A DNA stretch of 64,000 bases from Demequina phytophila. Its GTDB lineage: Bacteria; Actinomycetota; Actinomycetes; Actinomycetales; Demequinaceae. Every line of letters starts with the position of its first letter. Positions within the stretch are counted from its first letter, which is position 1. The stretch is from assembly GCF_000971135.1 (NCBI RefSeq), contig NZ_BBLW01000003.1, positions 248,001-312,000 on the forward strand. The letters are read 5' to 3'. The translations under genes and the position numbers were made by a program. Positions 32,551 to 39,873 of this stretch are shown in pieces. The notes beneath the pieces were generated by a model, which was given only the letters and a program-made list of their open reading frames with translations, had not been told where the DNA came from and did no database searches.

Positions 32551-33789
32551 TCACCCGAACAGCGTCTCCCCGACGAACCCGCCCTCCTCGCAGCCGGGCG
32601 GGATCGCCCAGACCCCCGACCCGACGGGCGTGGTCCACGTGTTGAGCAGGTCCGCCTGGGCGAGCCTCCGCTGCATCGGCACGAACTGCGCGTCCACGTC
32701 CCGCTGCCACGACCCGAACAGGAGTCCCACGTGGGACACCGCGGGCCGTCCGCGGGAGTCGGTGGCGCCGGACTCGACCGGGTCGTCGTAGGTGAAGCCC
32801 ATGCGGACGATGCCCCGGGCCGGGTCCGCGACGTGCGCGCGGGCGGCGTGGGCGGCCGGGTTGATGACGGTGAACCCGGAGGCGTCGCGCGCTTCGAGGT
32901 CGATCGGATCCTTCTCCGCGCCCCCGCTGAGCGGGGCGCCGTCGGACAGCCTCCGCCCCACGGAGGCCTCGCGGCCGTCGACGCCCACCTCGTCCCAGCC
33001 CTCGAGATCCATCGCGATGCGCCGCAGCACCAGCGAGGTCCCGCCGCGCAGCCACGCGGGCGCCTCGGACCCCGCCCAGACGGCGCTGTCGAAGGCCGCA
33101 TCGCCCGGCCGGGGCGTGGTCGATCCGTCGACCTGGCCGAAGAGGTTGCGCATGGTGGTGCCGGAGGGATCGGAGCCGTACGCCCGCCGGAAGCCGGCCT
33201 GGCGCCAGCGCAACGTCGCGAAGGAGCGCGAATCCCGCACGATCATCCGTGCGAGGTGAGCGATCGACGTCGGATCGTCCCCGTGGAGAAGCACCACGGC
33301 GTCGCCGCCGGACCAGCGCTGCTCGAGCGCGTCGATCTGCGGGAACGCGGGCAGCGGCCCGAGCCACGCCGGCGCCTCCGCGCCCGCGCGGCGCACGGCC
33401 TCCCGCCCCAGCCCGAACGTCGCGGTGAGGCCGGCGGGGCGCACCGCGAGCTCCGGCTCGAGGTCGGCCAGCGCGCCCCGGCCCTGCGTGAGCCGCGCCG
33501 CGTCGTCGCTGAGGAGCCGCAGCCAGGCCGCGAGGCGCTCGCGATCGGTCCCGCGGAGCAGGTCGAAGGCCAGGTACACGGCGTGCGCGCCGGGTGCGGA
33601 CGTGACGCCCGCCTGGTGGGGGCCGTGGAACGGGACGGTGCGCTCGCCGTTGACGCCCGCGGCGTCGGGGCCCGGATCGGGCAGGGCGACGGGGATCAGT
33701 CCGGCGCGCGCGGCGCCGAGCGTCGCGGCGGCGCCCGCGCCGGCGGCGGCCCCTCCGAGGAGGAGCCGCCGCCGGCTCAGGCCCGTCAT
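32551..33789 (-). CDS. Tat-exported Dyp-type haem peroxidase (DtpA/EfeB-like)
   Basis: 412 residues. The twin-arginine signal LSRRRLLLGG precedes an Ala-rich hydrophobic stretch. The Dyp motif is FGQVDGSTTP (Gly-x-x-Asp-Gly with the distal Asp), and the proximal haem His lies in INPAAHAARAH. The C-terminus RRLAQADLLNTWTTPVGSGV is typical. It overlaps the PCuAC gene by ATGA. In Streptomyces a Dyp peroxidase (DtpA) is encoded with a PCuAC-type copper chaperone and takes part in copper-dependent oxidase maturation; the same set here suggests a related job, by inference. Confidence 0.93.
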   Translation of the reverse strand: MTGLSRRRLLLGGAAAGAGAAATLGAARAGLIPVALPDPGPDAAGVNGERTVPFHGPHQAGVTSAPGAHAVYLAFDLLRGTDRERLAAWLRLLSDDAARLTQGRGALADLEPELAVRPAGLTATFGLGREAVRRAGAEAPAWLGPLPAFPQIDALEQRWSGGDAVVLLHGDDPTSIAHLARMIVRDSRSFATLRWRQAGFRRAYGSDPSGTTMRNLFGQVDGSTTPRPGDAAFDSAVWAGSEAPAWLRGGTSLVLRRIAMDLEGWDEVGVDGREASVGRRLSDGAPLSGGAEKDPIDLEARDASGFTVINPAAHAARAHVADPARGIVRMGFTYDDPVESGATDSRGRPAVSHVGLLFGSWQRDVDAQFVPMQRRLAQADLLNTWTTPVGSGVWAIPPGCEEGGFVGETLFG

Positions 33790-34280
33790 TCGGAGGACCC
33801 CATGTCCATGTCGGACCCGTGGTACTCCTCGTTGCCGCCGTCGAAGTCCTTGGCCGTCGCGGTGAGGTCCACGGTGGCGCCGGTCGAGAGCTCGAGCGTG
33901 AGGTCGACCTGGTCGCCCGCCTCGATGGCCTCGGGCAACTCCATGATCATGAGGTGGTAGCCGCCGGGCTCGAGGGTGAGGCTCTCGCCGGCGGGGATGT
34001 CGAAGCCGCCCTCGACGGGCGCCATCGCGCCGTCCACCACCTCGTGAAGCTCGATGGTCGGGAACACGTCGGACGTCGCCGCGACCACGGTGATGTCCTC
34101 GTCGGTGGTGTTGGTGAGCGTGCCGAACGCGGCGGACATCATGTCCTCCGGGACGGCCGTCTTCACCCACGGGTCGGTGACGGTGAGCGGTGCGTCCTCG
34201 GACGCTGCGTCGGGCGCGCAGCCGGCGAGCAGCAGGGCGGCGGCCGCGGAGGCGGCGAGGACGAGGGGACGGGCGTGCAT
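33786..34280 (-). CDS. PCuAC-type copper chaperone lipoprotein (DUF461)
   Basis: 164 residues. Lipobox LAGC (Cys21) makes it a lipid-anchored extracytoplasmic protein. The copper site pattern of PCuAC proteins is visible in IELHEVVDGAMAP and GGYHLMIMEL. A His/Met tail (EEYHGSDMDMGSSE) adds possible ligands. It would deliver Cu(I) outside the cell. The start of the Dyp peroxidase gene lies in its stop. Confidence 0.92.
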   Translation of the reverse strand: MHARPLVLAASAAAALLLAGCAPDAASEDAPLTVTDPWVKTAVPEDMMSAAFGTLTNTTDEDITVVAATSDVFPTIELHEVVDGAMAPVEGGFDIPAGESLTLEPGGYHLMIMELPEAIEAGDQVDLTLELSTGATVDLTATAKDFDGGNEEYHGSDMDMGSSE

Positions 34281-34364
34281 GAGCTCTCCTGAGATGAAGG
34301 GTCGCGCGCGGGCGCGCGGGGATGCCTGAGGGGTGCGCGAGGCCTCGCGCGGGGGATGCGGTGC

Positions 34365-34937
34365 TCAGGCGGCCGCGGGAGGCGCGCGGCTCGGAAGGGA
34401 GGCGAGGAGGATCGCGGCGACCGCGCGAGGAGCGCGCGGCGCGGGGACGATGCGGGGGCCGGGCGCGTGCGCGGCGGCGGGCGCCGGCGAGGGGCCGGGA
34501 AGGAACGCCCGGGCGGCCATCGCGGCGAGGCGGCCGAGGGCGGCGAGCAGCGCGCTCGCGCGGCGGATGCCGAGGTACGTGAGCGCGCCCGCGACCCCGT
34601 GCGCGACGGGCATGGTCGCGTGGACGGTCACGGCGCCGTCCAGGACGGGCGCACCGTGGTGCGCGTGGTCGGTCGCGGCCGCGGGCGCGTGCGCGCCCAT
34701 CGAGAACGTGGTGTGCAGCGCCGCCTGGCTCGCGGCGACGATCGCGGCGAGCCGCCACCGCCCGAGCGGCCGGCCGGAGAGCTGGAACGCGACCGCGAAG
34801 GCCGCGAGCAGCGGCGCCACCACGGCGAGCAGCGTGGGGCTCTCGCCTCCGGCGAGCACGTGCAGGGCGAGCGCGGAGAACGTCGACAGCAGCGAGGCGC
34901 CGAGCGCGCGCCCCAGCCTCGTCACGTTCGCGTTCAC
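34365..34937 (-). CDS. Membrane protein linked to the PCuAC-Dyp genes
   Basis: 190 residues with about four hydrophobic helices (LLSTFSALALHVLAGG; LLAVVAPLLAAFAVAF; a third around residue 65; a fourth near 110-140) and a His-rich loop TDHAHHGAP. The C-terminal 50 residues are Pro/Ala/Arg-rich. I do not recognise a named family, but small His-containing membrane proteins accompany PCuAC genes in actinobacteria. It lies 84 bases before the PCuAC gene in the same direction. Confidence 0.7.
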   Translation of the reverse strand: MNANVTRLGRALGASLLSTFSALALHVLAGGESPTLLAVVAPLLAAFAVAFQLSGRPLGRWRLAAIVAASQAALHTTFSMGAHAPAAATDHAHHGAPVLDGAVTVHATMPVAHGVAGALTYLGIRRASALLAALGRLAAMAARAFLPGPSPAPAAAHAPGPRIVPAPRAPRAVAAILLASLPSRAPPAAA

Positions 34938-34999
34938 GTGCGCGATTCTCCCACGGGGCGGACGGGCGTCCCGCTCCGCGTGGGGGATGATGGTGCGTC

Positions 35000-35671
35000 A
35001 TGAGCGAGCAGACCGCCGAGGCCCCGAAGGAGCGGCCCGACCACCAGCGCTGGAACTACAACATCCACTCGATGTCGCCCCTGCTGGGCACCATCCCCGA
35101 CGCGGCCCGCACCGCGCTCGACGTGGGCTGCGGCGAGGGCTACCTCGCGCGCCGGCTCGCGGCGCGGGGGCTCGAGGTGACGGGCATCGACGCGGACCCC
35201 GCCGCGATCGCGCGGGCGCGCGCCCAGGGCCACACCGTCGAGCTGCTCACCTCCACCGAGGAGGAGCCCGCCGAGTCGCCCTCCATCACGTACAAGGTCG
35301 GCGACGCGATGACGGCGGATCTGGGCACCTACGACGTGGTGACCGCCTCCGCGGTGCTGCACCACCTCGACCTCGAGCAGGGCCTCGCGCGGCTGCGCGA
35401 CCTGGTCGCGCCCGGCGGTCGCCTGCTCGTGGTGGGCATGGCGAGGTCGAACTGGCCGCAGGACCTGCCGCGCGACGTGTGGGCGACGTTCGTCGACAAG
35501 TTCCACCGGCTGTTCCGCGGCTACTGGGACCACGGCTGCGACTGCACGTGGCCCGCCCCGCACTCGTTCGCGGACGTGCGCGACGCCGCCCCGCGCATCG
35601 TCCCCGGGTCCGTCTATACGCGCGACCTGCTGTGGCGCTACACGCTCACCTGGGACAGGCCCGCGTCCTGA
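35000..35671 (+). CDS. Class I SAM-dependent methyltransferase
   Basis: 223 residues. Motif I is LDVGCGEGYLARRLA, then VTGIDADP, YDVVTASAVLHHL and the post-motif LVAPGGRLLVVGM. The N-terminus HQRWNYNIHSMSPLL marks a small-molecule methyltransferase of the Methyltransf_11/25 type. The last 34 bases overlap the convergent aminotransferase gene. Substrate unknown. Confidence 0.88.
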   Translation: MSEQTAEAPKERPDHQRWNYNIHSMSPLLGTIPDAARTALDVGCGEGYLARRLAARGLEVTGIDADPAAIARARAQGHTVELLTSTEEEPAESPSITYKVGDAMTADLGTYDVVTASAVLHHLDLEQGLARLRDLVAPGGRLLVVGMARSNWPQDLPRDVWATFVDKFHRLFRGYWDHGCDCTWPAPHSFADVRDAAPRIVPGSVYTRDLLWRYTLTWDRPAS

Positions 35672-37662: not shown

Positions 37663-38742
37663 TCAGTCGCGCGACGGGTCCGTGGCGCGCTCGGGCGTCG
37701 GGTCGACGAACCCGTGGTGCGAGGCCGCCTGCGCGATCGCCTCCTCGCGCTCGAGCCGCTTCGACGCGCGCAGGCTGGTGACGGTGGTGATGACGAGCAC
37801 GCCGATGATCACCAGCAGCGACCACGTGGTGGGGACCGTGGGGACGCCGGGCCAGACGCCGTGGGCCCAGTGGAGCACCAGCTTGACGCCGATGAAGCCC
37901 AGGATGATCGACAGGCCGTAGCCCAGGTGGACCAGCTTCGACAGCGCGCCCTCGAGCACGAAGTACAGGGCGCGCAGGCCCAGCAGCGCGAACGCGTTGG
38001 TGGCGAACACCAGGTACGGGTCCGCGGTGATGCCGTAGACGGCCGGGACCGAGTCGACGGCGAACACGACGTCGGTGACGATGATCGCGGCCATCACCAG
38101 CGCCAGCGGGGTGAGCGCGCGGCGTCCGTTGCGCATCACGGTGGCCTTGGTGCCCTCGTACTCGCCGGTGACGGGGAAGAACCGGCTGAGGACCTTGACG
38201 ATCCGCATCTGGGACGGGTCGATCTCCTCCTCGTGGTCGCTGCGCGCGTCCCGGAACACCTTGATCGCGGTGGCGAAGAGGATCGCGCCGAACAGGAGGA
38301 AGGTCCAGTCGAACGTCGCGATGAGGCCCGCGCCGAGCGCGATGAACACGCCGCGCAGCACGATCGCGCCGGCCACGCCGATGAGCAGCACCCGCTGCTG
38401 CAGGATCCTCGGCACCGCGAACGCGCTGAGGATGAGGATGAACACGAAGAGGTTGTCGACGGACAGCGACTTCTCGACGATGTACCCCGTGTAGTACTTC
38501 ACACCGATGTCGCCACCGTGCGCCGCCCACACCCACGCGCCGAACGCGAGGGGGATCGCGATGTAGAAGATCGACCAGCCGACAGCCTCCTTGAAGGAGA
38601 CCTCGTGGGGCTTGCGGGTGACGATGAAGTCGAAGATCAGCAGGCCGATGACGGCGGCGATGGTGCCGATCCACAGGCCGGGGGTGGCGATGGAGTGCAG
38701 CGGGGCGTCGGCCGCGGCTGCCTCGAGGACGAGGGGGGACAT
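37663..38742 (-). CDS. TerC-family (Alx-like) membrane protein
   Basis: 359 residues, about nine helices. Hallmarks: VVFAVDSVPAVYGIT with the conserved Asp, SLSVDNLFVFILILSAF, and ADPYLVFATNAFALLGLRALYF. TerC/Alx proteins handle manganese or other divalent ions. The start is ATG 38742 behind GAGGAG, not the far upstream GTG at 38898, because the 5' leader contains a yybP-ykoY-type manganese-sensor fold (38767-38866) whose expression platform covers this SD. Confidence 0.93.
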   Translation of the reverse strand: MSPLVLEAAAADAPLHSIATPGLWIGTIAAVIGLLIFDFIVTRKPHEVSFKEAVGWSIFYIAIPLAFGAWVWAAHGGDIGVKYYTGYIVEKSLSVDNLFVFILILSAFAVPRILQQRVLLIGVAGAIVLRGVFIALGAGLIATFDWTFLLFGAILFATAIKVFRDARSDHEEEIDPSQMRIVKVLSRFFPVTGEYEGTKATVMRNGRRALTPLALVMAAIIVTDVVFAVDSVPAVYGITADPYLVFATNAFALLGLRALYFVLEGALSKLVHLGYGLSIILGFIGVKLVLHWAHGVWPGVPTVPTTWSLLVIIGVLVITTVTSLRASKRLEREEAIAQAASHHGFVDPTPERATDPSRD

Positions 38743-38748
38743 GGGGCT

Positions 38749-38866
38749 CCTCAGGTACACGAAAGTCCTGAGGTCTCCTTCGCCGCTGGTGCGGCGCCCG
38801 CCCGGGAGGATCCACGAAGATCTCGTACTGACCGGAACGGGGCTTGAGAAGTACTCCCCTCGGTGG
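38749..38866 (-). promoter_or_regulatory. yybP-ykoY-type (Mn2+) riboswitch with SD-sequestering hairpin
   Basis: On the minus strand GAGGGGAGTA (complement of 38852-38861) and GGAGACCTC (complement of 38770-38778) give the diagnostic 5' and 3' consensus segments and P1 pairing. A terminal hairpin CGCCGC-ACCA-GCGGCG (38781-38796) precedes the 3' segment as in the family. The P1 strand CCTCAGG (38767-38773) can alternatively pair perfectly with CCTGAGG (38749-38755), which contains the terC SD GAGGAG (38747-38752). That predicts translation ON when metal stabilises P1. Family match and switching logic are read by eye. Confidence 0.72.
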
Positions 38867-38891
38867 TCAAGAGTAAGGGATGACCGGTCGT

Positions 38892-39002
38892 CGCGCACCT
38901 CTCCACTCAGGTCGGTGTGTGAATCGGTTCATCGGTGCATCCCGCGTCGCGAATGGCGGGTTCTCGGCGGAGGGTTGCATTTCTTGTGTGGAGAGGTGCG
39001 CG
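38892..39002. repeat. 15-bp perfect inverted repeat with 81-bp spacer
   Basis: CGCGCACCTCTCCAC (38892-38906) and GTGGAGAGGTGCGCG (38988-39002) are exact inverted copies, with a small inner CCCGC/GCGGG stem (38941-38960). It lies between the end of the ATP-grasp gene and the terC leader. A terminator with a long loop, a structured RNA or a mobile remnant are all possible. Confidence 0.5.
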
Positions 39003-39012
39003 CCGCGAGTCG

Positions 39013-39873
39013 TCAGAGCAGCGCGCGGAACGCCTCCGCCGCGCGCTCCGGCGCTCCCTCGCCGAGCGCGAGGAACAGGCTCGGCTCCGTGAGCTCGAGC
39101 TCGAGCACCACGGGCCCCTCGGCCGTGGGCAGCAGGTCCACGCGCACGTACGCGAGGTCGGGGTGACCCAGCGACGGCAGCGCCGCGATGATCCTGTCGG
39201 CGAGATCCCGCTCGGCCTCCGTCGCGGAGGTCGCCACCACCTTCTCGTCCGCGTACAGGCCGGTCTCCCACGACATGTCCCGTGACAGGATCGCCGCCTT
39301 GCGCGCGGCGTGCGAGAAGCGTCCCCCCAGGTAGACCAGCGCGGTCTCGCCGGCGGTGTCGACCTCGGCGAGGTACGGCTGGATCATCGCCACCTTGCCC
39401 TGCGCGTGCAGCGCGGCGACGTGGGCGAGGGCCGCGTCGGGCTCGCCGTCGAAAAGGCGTGCCCCGTTGGATCCCGCCCCGACCGACGGCTTCACCACCA
39501 GGTGCCCGTCCAGGGCGACCACCGCATCGTCCACCCCGTCGCCCGGCGCCACGAACGTGGTGGGCACGGTCGGGAAGCCCGCGGCGGCGAGGTCGCCCAG
39601 GTAGCGCTTGTCCGTGTTCCACTCGACGGTCGCGACGGGGTTGAGCAGGCGCGTGACGGACGATGCGGCGCGCGCCCACGCGAGGAAGTCGCCCAGGCGG
39701 TCGTGGTAGTTCCACGTGCTGCGCAGGATCGCCACGTCGTACGCCGACCAGTCGACGGAAGGGTCGTCCCACGCGACCAGGGCGGCCTCGGGCAGGTGCG
39801 GCAGCAGCAGGTCCTCGTCGGCGTCCGGGACGGACAGCTCGAGCGTGGTGACGATGGCGATGCGGGCGGTCAT
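39013..39873 (-). CDS. ATP-grasp domain protein
   Basis: 286 residues. DVAILRSTWNYHDRLGDFLAW at about residues 45-65 and LVVKPSVGAGSNGARLF are typical of a RimK/glutathione-synthetase-like ATP-grasp family; VVLELELTEPSLFL near the end has the metal-binding Glu residues. The product would be an amide or peptide bond, but partner substrates are unknown and no peptide precursor gene is beside it. Confidence 0.83.
   Translation of the reverse strand: MTARIAIVTTLELSVPDADEDLLLPHLPEAALVAWDDPSVDWSAYDVAILRSTWNYHDRLGDFLAWARAASSVTRLLNPVATVEWNTDKRYLGDLAAAGFPTVPTTFVAPGDGVDDAVVALDGHLVVKPSVGAGSNGARLFDGEPDAALAHVAALHAQGKVAMIQPYLAEVDTAGETALVYLGGRFSHAARKAAILSRDMSWETGLYADEKVVATSATEAERDLADRIIAALPSLGHPDLAYVRVDLLPTAEGPVVLELELTEPSLFLALGEGAPERAAEAFRALL

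Follow-up and report, generated by a model that had tools for sequence, protein, structure and literature searches.

Leaders of the yybP-ykoY family have been described in several bacteria. According to the available parts of the publications, L3 of the Xanthomonas oryzae riboswitch includes A46, A48, U49, A50, C51, and U52, with Mn2+ bound by N7 of A48, and A10 of L1 docks on P3.1 through an A-minor contact (PMC6754395); the metal site of the Lactococcus lactis riboswitch comprises G9, U39, C40, A41, U44, and C45 (PMC9190785). In Vibrio parahaemolyticus, MneA (TMEM165/UPF0016 family) and TerC are given as Mn exporters that are induced by Mn and whose genes follow yybP-ykoY leaders, in the part of the source available (PMC13274385).

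Here, we describe a leader of this family in a 64,000-nucleotide stretch of the Demequina phytophila genome (RefSeq assembly GCF_000971135.1, contig NZ_BBLW01000003.1, positions 248,001 to 312,000; hereafter, the window). The closest described system is the leader of Escherichia coli alx, which lies upstream of the gene for the TerC-family Mn exporter Alx. It shares with the window the P1-L1-P1.2 arrangement, P4, the GAGACC motif, and the lack of P2; L3 is of the form UCANNAC in both (UCAUUAC in alx), and both stand ahead of a TerC gene. This comparison covers the aptamer, in which the window's leader is more GC rich, its P4 is shorter, and its P3.1 reads CCGG (AUCG in alx). The E. coli mntP form (RF00080) shares with the window GGGGAGUAG/C, a 7-nt L3 with A as its third base, P3.2, P4, and GAGACC; however, it has a P2 hairpin (delineated partly by eye) and the L3 sequence ACAUACU, whereas the leader in the window lacks P2 and goes undetected by RF00080. 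The terC (cg2157) leader of Corynebacterium glutamicum is actinobacterial, like that of the window, and is assigned to the same family; we compared it by its listing (RF00080, 49.13 bits, RNA ends observed; available part of PMC3890552) rather than by sequence. Finally, the S. pneumoniae mgtA yybP-ykoY riboswitch is described, in the part of the source available, as a three-way junction like that of the window, but it controls mgtA instead (an Mn2+/Ca2+ ATPase by the title cited there; PMC9495176).

The P2 helix and four-way junction of the solved structures are absent from the window. Since alx has no P2 and a three-way junction has been published for mgtA, P2 is not required for membership in the family, and for the same reasons we dropped the idea that the P2-less form is new. 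Within the available parts of the literature on this family in Actinobacteria, with TerC, and with three-way junctions, we found no description of the P2-less form as a subclass.

RESULTS

Locus and aptamer anatomy

The terC-family gene (37663-38742, minus strand; ATG at 38742) encodes a 359-aa protein that matches Pfam TerC (PF03741) with 159.9 bits and shares 37% identity with E. coli Alx across 331 columns (i.e., the gene downstream is of an Mn homeostasis family). Its closest named relative is from Demequina silvatica (94%). The leader occupies 38862-38743, and on its other flank is a gene ending at 39013 that appears ATP-grasp-like by eye. The original prediction had placed a yybP-ykoY-type leader at 38740-38866 on the basis of its 5' and 3' segments and had left the strand unstated. 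These coordinates are right, the strand is minus, and both segments are present, i.e., GAGGGGAGTA at 38861-38852 and GGAGACCTC at 38778-38770.

The aptamer (38770-38861, minus strand) is delimited by two covariance models (R1 and R2; see below) and by covariation, and it forms a three-way junction of P1, P3, and P4. The 5' strand of P1 (GAGG, 38858-38861; covariation) is followed by the 5' side of L1 (GGAGUA, 38852-38857), which faces the 3' side of L1 (GAGA, 38774-38777); both sides are invariant in the 75 rows of alignment A1. P1.2 consists of CUUC (38848-38851) and its partner GAAG (38781-38778; supported by covariation), and elsewhere it occurs as CCCC/GGGG, CCUC/GAGG, UUCC/GGAA, or GCCC/GGGC. 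Structure and covariation define both strands of P3 (CCCCGUUCCGG at 38832-38842 and the 3' strand at 38796-38805), which enclose the metal loop L3 (UCAGUAC, 38825-38831) and the P3.2 stem-loop (38806-38824), six of whose seven pairs vary on both sides. Covariation also supports the P4 hairpin (GCCGC-ACCA-GCGGC, 38782-38795). The last strand is CCUC (38770-38773), which can serve either as the 3' strand of P1 or as the 5' arm of a downstream hairpin.

A -10-like TACTCT (38870-38875, minus strand) lies 8 nt ahead of P1, which makes P1 the probable start of the RNA. Across 77 leaders, a TANNNT trend one base closer to P1 is weak (T, 53%; A, 48%; T, 71%), and a sigma-70 scan found no promoter. Directly upstream of the terC promoter region is an inverted repeat (38889-38909/38985-39005; 21 nt, 90%, 75 nt separating the arms). 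The same genome has a similar pair with equal spacing (95 nt between starts) at C7:1074/1169, and in some other Demequina leaders the position of the window's repeat is occupied by differing arms (by eye). The repeat resembles a small intergenic repeat of the dispersed type. Elsewhere in the window, the minus-strand ORF at 33786-34280 resembles a PCuAC-type copper chaperone, and the frame at 32551-35001 beside it (minus strand) encodes what looks like a DyP peroxidase carrying a Tat-like signal (both by eye).

Conservation and covariation

From 512 terC-like places in named genomes, we kept the best 80. The element is present in 77 of these 80: GGGGAGTA...GAGACC precedes terC in 76, and one further leader (L034), outside the position limits of this pattern, was matched by R1. 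Among the same 80, R1 gave at most 12.1 bits at two of the remaining loci (L030 and L047) and no match at the third (L037).

Alignment A1 comprises the window and 74 distinct leader sequences. RNAalifold, applied unprompted, returned essentially the structure that we had drawn by hand. Both sides vary in 20 of the 30 pairs, and paired cells amount to 92.3%, compared with 76.8% in shuffles. None of 500 shuffles reached the covariation score of 0.465 (0.188 in shuffles), and slid versions scored at most 0.140. Three of the four P1 pairs are invariant in A1. The larger alignment A2 holds 103 class-wide matches from 100 of 104 loci (L108, L124, L125, and L172 are omitted); there, both sides vary in 25 of the 30 pairs and the covariation score is 0.639 versus 0.211, although A2 leans toward the model because it was fitted to it. 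Among the 100 distinct A2 rows, 63 have G-C and 31 have A-U as the outer P1 pair; at the second of the pairs beside L3, 83 have C-G and 16 have G-C, the version in the window. The distance from P1.2 to P3 is 4 to 8 nt in 101 of the 103 rows, which were selected by a P2-less model. The folding z-score of the leader (-1.18) is by itself not evidence.

Within the genus, the element co-occurs with its gene. Among the 39 relatives' genomes that we scanned with R2, 23 contain matches, one of them (G003) with a second, weak match of 33.2 bits. The window's genus is represented by 25 of these genomes. All 14 with a terC ortholog (at least 67% identity; in two pieces in one genome) carry the element directly ahead of that gene, and none of the 11 without the ortholog, which have only a terC paralog of approximately 41 to 51% identity, carries it.

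Covariance models and the RF00080 search

Covariance model R1 includes the window among its training rows, and R2 was for that reason built from other genera (32 leaders hand-picked out of 60 distinct ones, automatic structure, no Demequina). The window's leader scored 82.7 bits with R1, as a training row, and 71.7 bits with R2 (E = 3.6e-14; runner-up within the window, 15.0 bits). With filters off, both models matched the E. coli leader directly before alx (R1, 44.2 bits, E = 2.5e-8; R2, 34.1 bits, E = 1.9e-6), and the mntP leader obtained only 15.0 (R1) and 10.6 (R2) bits. Both models also matched four leaders (L084 to L087) to which RF00080 gives weak scores of 23.7 to 32.4 bits. The models thus connect the window with accepted members of the family. 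One of these four (L084) has an extra hairpin at the P2 position (by eye), so forms with and without P2 both exist in the class. The second TerC of the window's genome, 49% identical to the product of the leader-bearing gene, lacks a leader of this kind; with filters off, the R1 score at that locus was at most 10.7 bits, and the place that it matched lies downstream of the gene.

The original prediction had called for a search with RF00080 and had counted the lack of a significant covariance-model hit as part of what would speak against it. Taken literally, such a lack applies to RF00080: this model (Rfam 15) has no match in the window region at E values up to 10, and hence the window does not reach its gathering score, but family membership was recovered with R2, and RF00080 proved insensitive to the alx-type form. 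At E = 0.01, RF00080 missed alx itself, and its score for mntP, 41.6 bits, fell short of the cut-off of 45. Its negative result in the window therefore carries little weight, and the gathering score is a database threshold rather than a defining trait. The RF00080 consensus, as printed with its matches, has neither the P1 pairing nor the 3' GAGACC. Of the 197 genomes of the class, none passed its cut-off and 19 had matches at E values up to 1, whereas R1 (E up to 0.01) matched in at least 83, including the window's genome. The last count is a lower bound because the genomes of L085 and L087 were unflagged, although R1 matches both loci.

None of the 4,227 Rfam families matched 38600-39050 at E values up to 10. 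The NiCo (czcD) riboswitch model, which we take to be among the families scanned, had no match there, and this candidate was rejected. We also dropped the idea that the missing Rfam match indicates a new class, since RF00080 misses alx as well.

The predicted metal site

The 7-nt L3 of the window has the same length as the RF00080 loop ACAUACU. Its second base is C and its third base is A in all 101 class-wide matches (103 matches minus two duplicating L113), and the third base is likewise A in 75/75 A1 rows. On the basis of loop length and flanking pairs, the third base (38829) is the predicted equivalent of the Mn2+-binding A41 of L. lactis and A48 of X. oryzae; in our own mapping, the invariant A of L1 would correspond to A10 of the A-minor contact. 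L3 begins with UCA in 96 of the 101 matches and with ACA in 5 (ACAUACU or ACAGACU); the ACA group coincides exactly with the five matches ahead of GDT1 genes. The L3 loop of L. lactis is UCAAUUC, close to that of the window, and we accordingly dropped the idea that the L3 difference indicates another metal.

The shared strand and the anti-Shine-Dalgarno hairpin

On the minus strand, CCTCAGG (38773-38767) pairs with CCTGAGG (38755-38749) in a 7-bp hairpin with an 11-nt loop (38749-38773), which ends 6 nt ahead of the start codon and contains the GAGG part of the Shine-Dalgarno (SD) sequence GAGGAG (38747-38752). The aptamer and the hairpin compete for CCUC, as the original prediction had proposed for the 3' strand of P1 and a helix over the terC ribosome binding site. 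Sixty of the 77 leaders have a helix of 6 bp or longer (3.0% of shuffles), and the other 17 lack one; among the 60, L041 is doubtful because of its 42-nt loop. Class-wide, the fraction is 64/102 (10.7% of shuffles). In the 69 of 77 leaders with a downstream GAGG, the sequences outside the fixed CCUC/GAGG comprise 27 distinct extensions (e.g., AGG/CCU, AGA/UCU, GAG/CUC, and GUGC/GCAC), of which 17 pair at all three positions; shuffling of the partners gave 8.4 ± 1.7, with a largest value of 16 in 1,000 shuffles. An aptamer strand is thus shared with a conserved, covarying anti-SD helix, as in a translational ON riboswitch, and its presence in most of the relatives examined (60/77) supports the proposed shared-strand ON mechanism. 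In many leaders, the SD region GAGGAGACC echoes the 3' sequence of the aptamer (GGAGACC) approximately 25 nt downstream. This echo may either follow from the shared GAGG or stem from a duplication.

Unconstrained folding without ligand gave the hairpin (OFF) state in all 59 leaders (the 60 with the hairpin, less L041). In nearest-neighbor terms, OFF is favored by a median of 9.1 kcal/mol over these leaders and by 9.9 kcal/mol in the window. Such folding preferences fit an OFF ground state without ligand, as modeled here. At equilibrium, metal binding alone may be insufficient to overcome the preference; given the large gap, folding during transcription would have to matter. When the ON state of the window's leader was forced, the SD sequence was only partly free, and it may pair with the coding sequence in that model. 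Mean SD accessibility over the 59 leaders rises from 0.30 (OFF) to only 0.51 (ON), and in 6 of them it is lower in the ON state. The equilibrium energies are no demonstration that the switch can be flipped by Mn2+.

Gene context across the class

Genes were assigned to the 104 class-wide matches by tblastn with 11 query proteins, of which Pfam confirmed those for TerC (seven), GDT1 (two), and Ion_trans (one). The downstream gene encodes TerC at 88 matches, GDT1 (which we take to be the TMEM165/UPF0016 family of MneA) at 5, a protein of approximately 290 aa at 3, an Ion_trans channel at 2, and a PGPGW protein at 2; four matches, one of which is truncated where its contig ends, were given no assignment.

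The less common contexts are as follows. Mn-riboswitch-like elements stand directly ahead of genes for putative transmembrane PGPGW proteins (PF09656) at L130 (1501-1963) and L136 (201-756), in genomes of different families. Two genomes of one genus have elements ahead of genes for Ion_trans (voltage-gated-like) channels (L126 and L184). The approximately 290-aa protein, with a Gly/Ala-rich C terminus, follows elements in three genomes of one genus (L121, L129, and L153); a Pfam search with the L129 copy, the one searched, gave no match. At two loci, divergent elements lie back to back (L113, 1253-1357 on the minus strand and 1501-1595 on the plus strand; L116, 1501-1593 on the minus strand and 1706-1844 on the plus strand). 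In each pair, one element is ahead of terC and the other is weak (31 bits); the weak L113 element precedes a small membrane-like ORF (by eye).

DISCUSSION

The leader in the window is a solid but unremarkable addition to an established riboswitch family, and its switch anatomy is well supported. Its fold, covariation, shared strand, conservation, and gene context are established by computation. The class assignment of the original prediction is borne out by the covariation, by models that link the window to alx, by the residues of the metal site, and by the Mn exporter families encoded downstream. We consider it highly probable (roughly 0.87) that the leader is an alx-type (P2-less) Mn2+ yybP-ykoY riboswitch acting as a translational ON switch for the gene of a TerC-family (Alx-like) Mn exporter. 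By analogy with solved and tested relatives, from which we infer the Mn2+ ligand, the docking, the ON direction, and the translational level of control, CCUC (38773-38770) would pair at low Mn2+ with the GAGG of the SD sequence, and the 7-bp hairpin would keep translation off. At high Mn2+, Mg2+ and Mn2+ would dock L1 and L3 and hold P1 (GAGG/CCUC), which would capture the shared CCUC strand and free the SD sequence; TerC would then be made and would remove or redistribute Mn2+.

It is unlikely that the same fold answers to another trigger, chiefly another divalent ion or Mn2+ plus alkaline pH. The position of the adenosine that binds Mn2+ through its N7 shows no variation (A in 101/101; its role is given in the available parts of PMC6754395 and PMC9190785), and the genes downstream mostly belong to Mn exporter families. 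These observations have to be set against several reports, as far as the available parts of the sources go: one review anticipates yybP variants with specificity for other divalent ions (PMC7266159); alkaline shock elicits a response of alx, and mntP reaches maximal activation only with Mn and alkaline pH together (PMC9603457); and the S. pneumoniae mgtA aptamer binds Ca2+ more tightly than Mn2+ according to a review (PMC9495176). The L3 sequence of the window (UCAGUAC) is also unlike the mntP type (ACAUACU).

Control of transcript completion (through Rho or pausing) instead of ribosome access has precedents, i.e., a title cited in the available part of PMC13274385 reports Rho-dependent control of mntP, and the L. 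lactis riboswitch acts by termination (available part of PMC9190785). In the window, however, the hairpin takes up the SD sequence itself close to the start codon, its stem covaries among relatives, and a scan of 38700-39010, which does not cover Rho sites, found no terminator-like site; we regard this type of control as quite improbable. That the leader binds a protein, or resembles a riboswitch only by chance, would agree with the missing RF00080 match but is very improbable given the independent R2 score of 71.7 bits, the matches of R1 and R2 to the alx leader, and the strong covariation.

Translational control by Mn2+ through an alx-type aptamer is the reading that we retain. More tentatively, the P2-less UCANNAC form might be a distinct alx-type subclass that differs from the ACAUACU form in its response to metal or pH and whose regulon includes orphan membrane genes, although we consider this doubtful. 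A distinct response is suggested because the UCANNAC form is mainly linked to TerC, whereas all five ACA-type matches are linked to GDT1. If the subclass reading is true, the PGPGW proteins, the Ion_trans channels, and the approximately 290-aa protein would be new Mn-related genes.

The leader is a clear example, from a GC-rich actinobacterium, of an Mn exporter gene under a probable translational ON switch with a shared strand. The public RNA family model misses the alx-type form (0/197 genomes over the cut-off versus at least 83/197 with a dedicated model), so Mn regulation in Actinobacteria is probably underannotated. A corrected RNA family model would point to untested genes.
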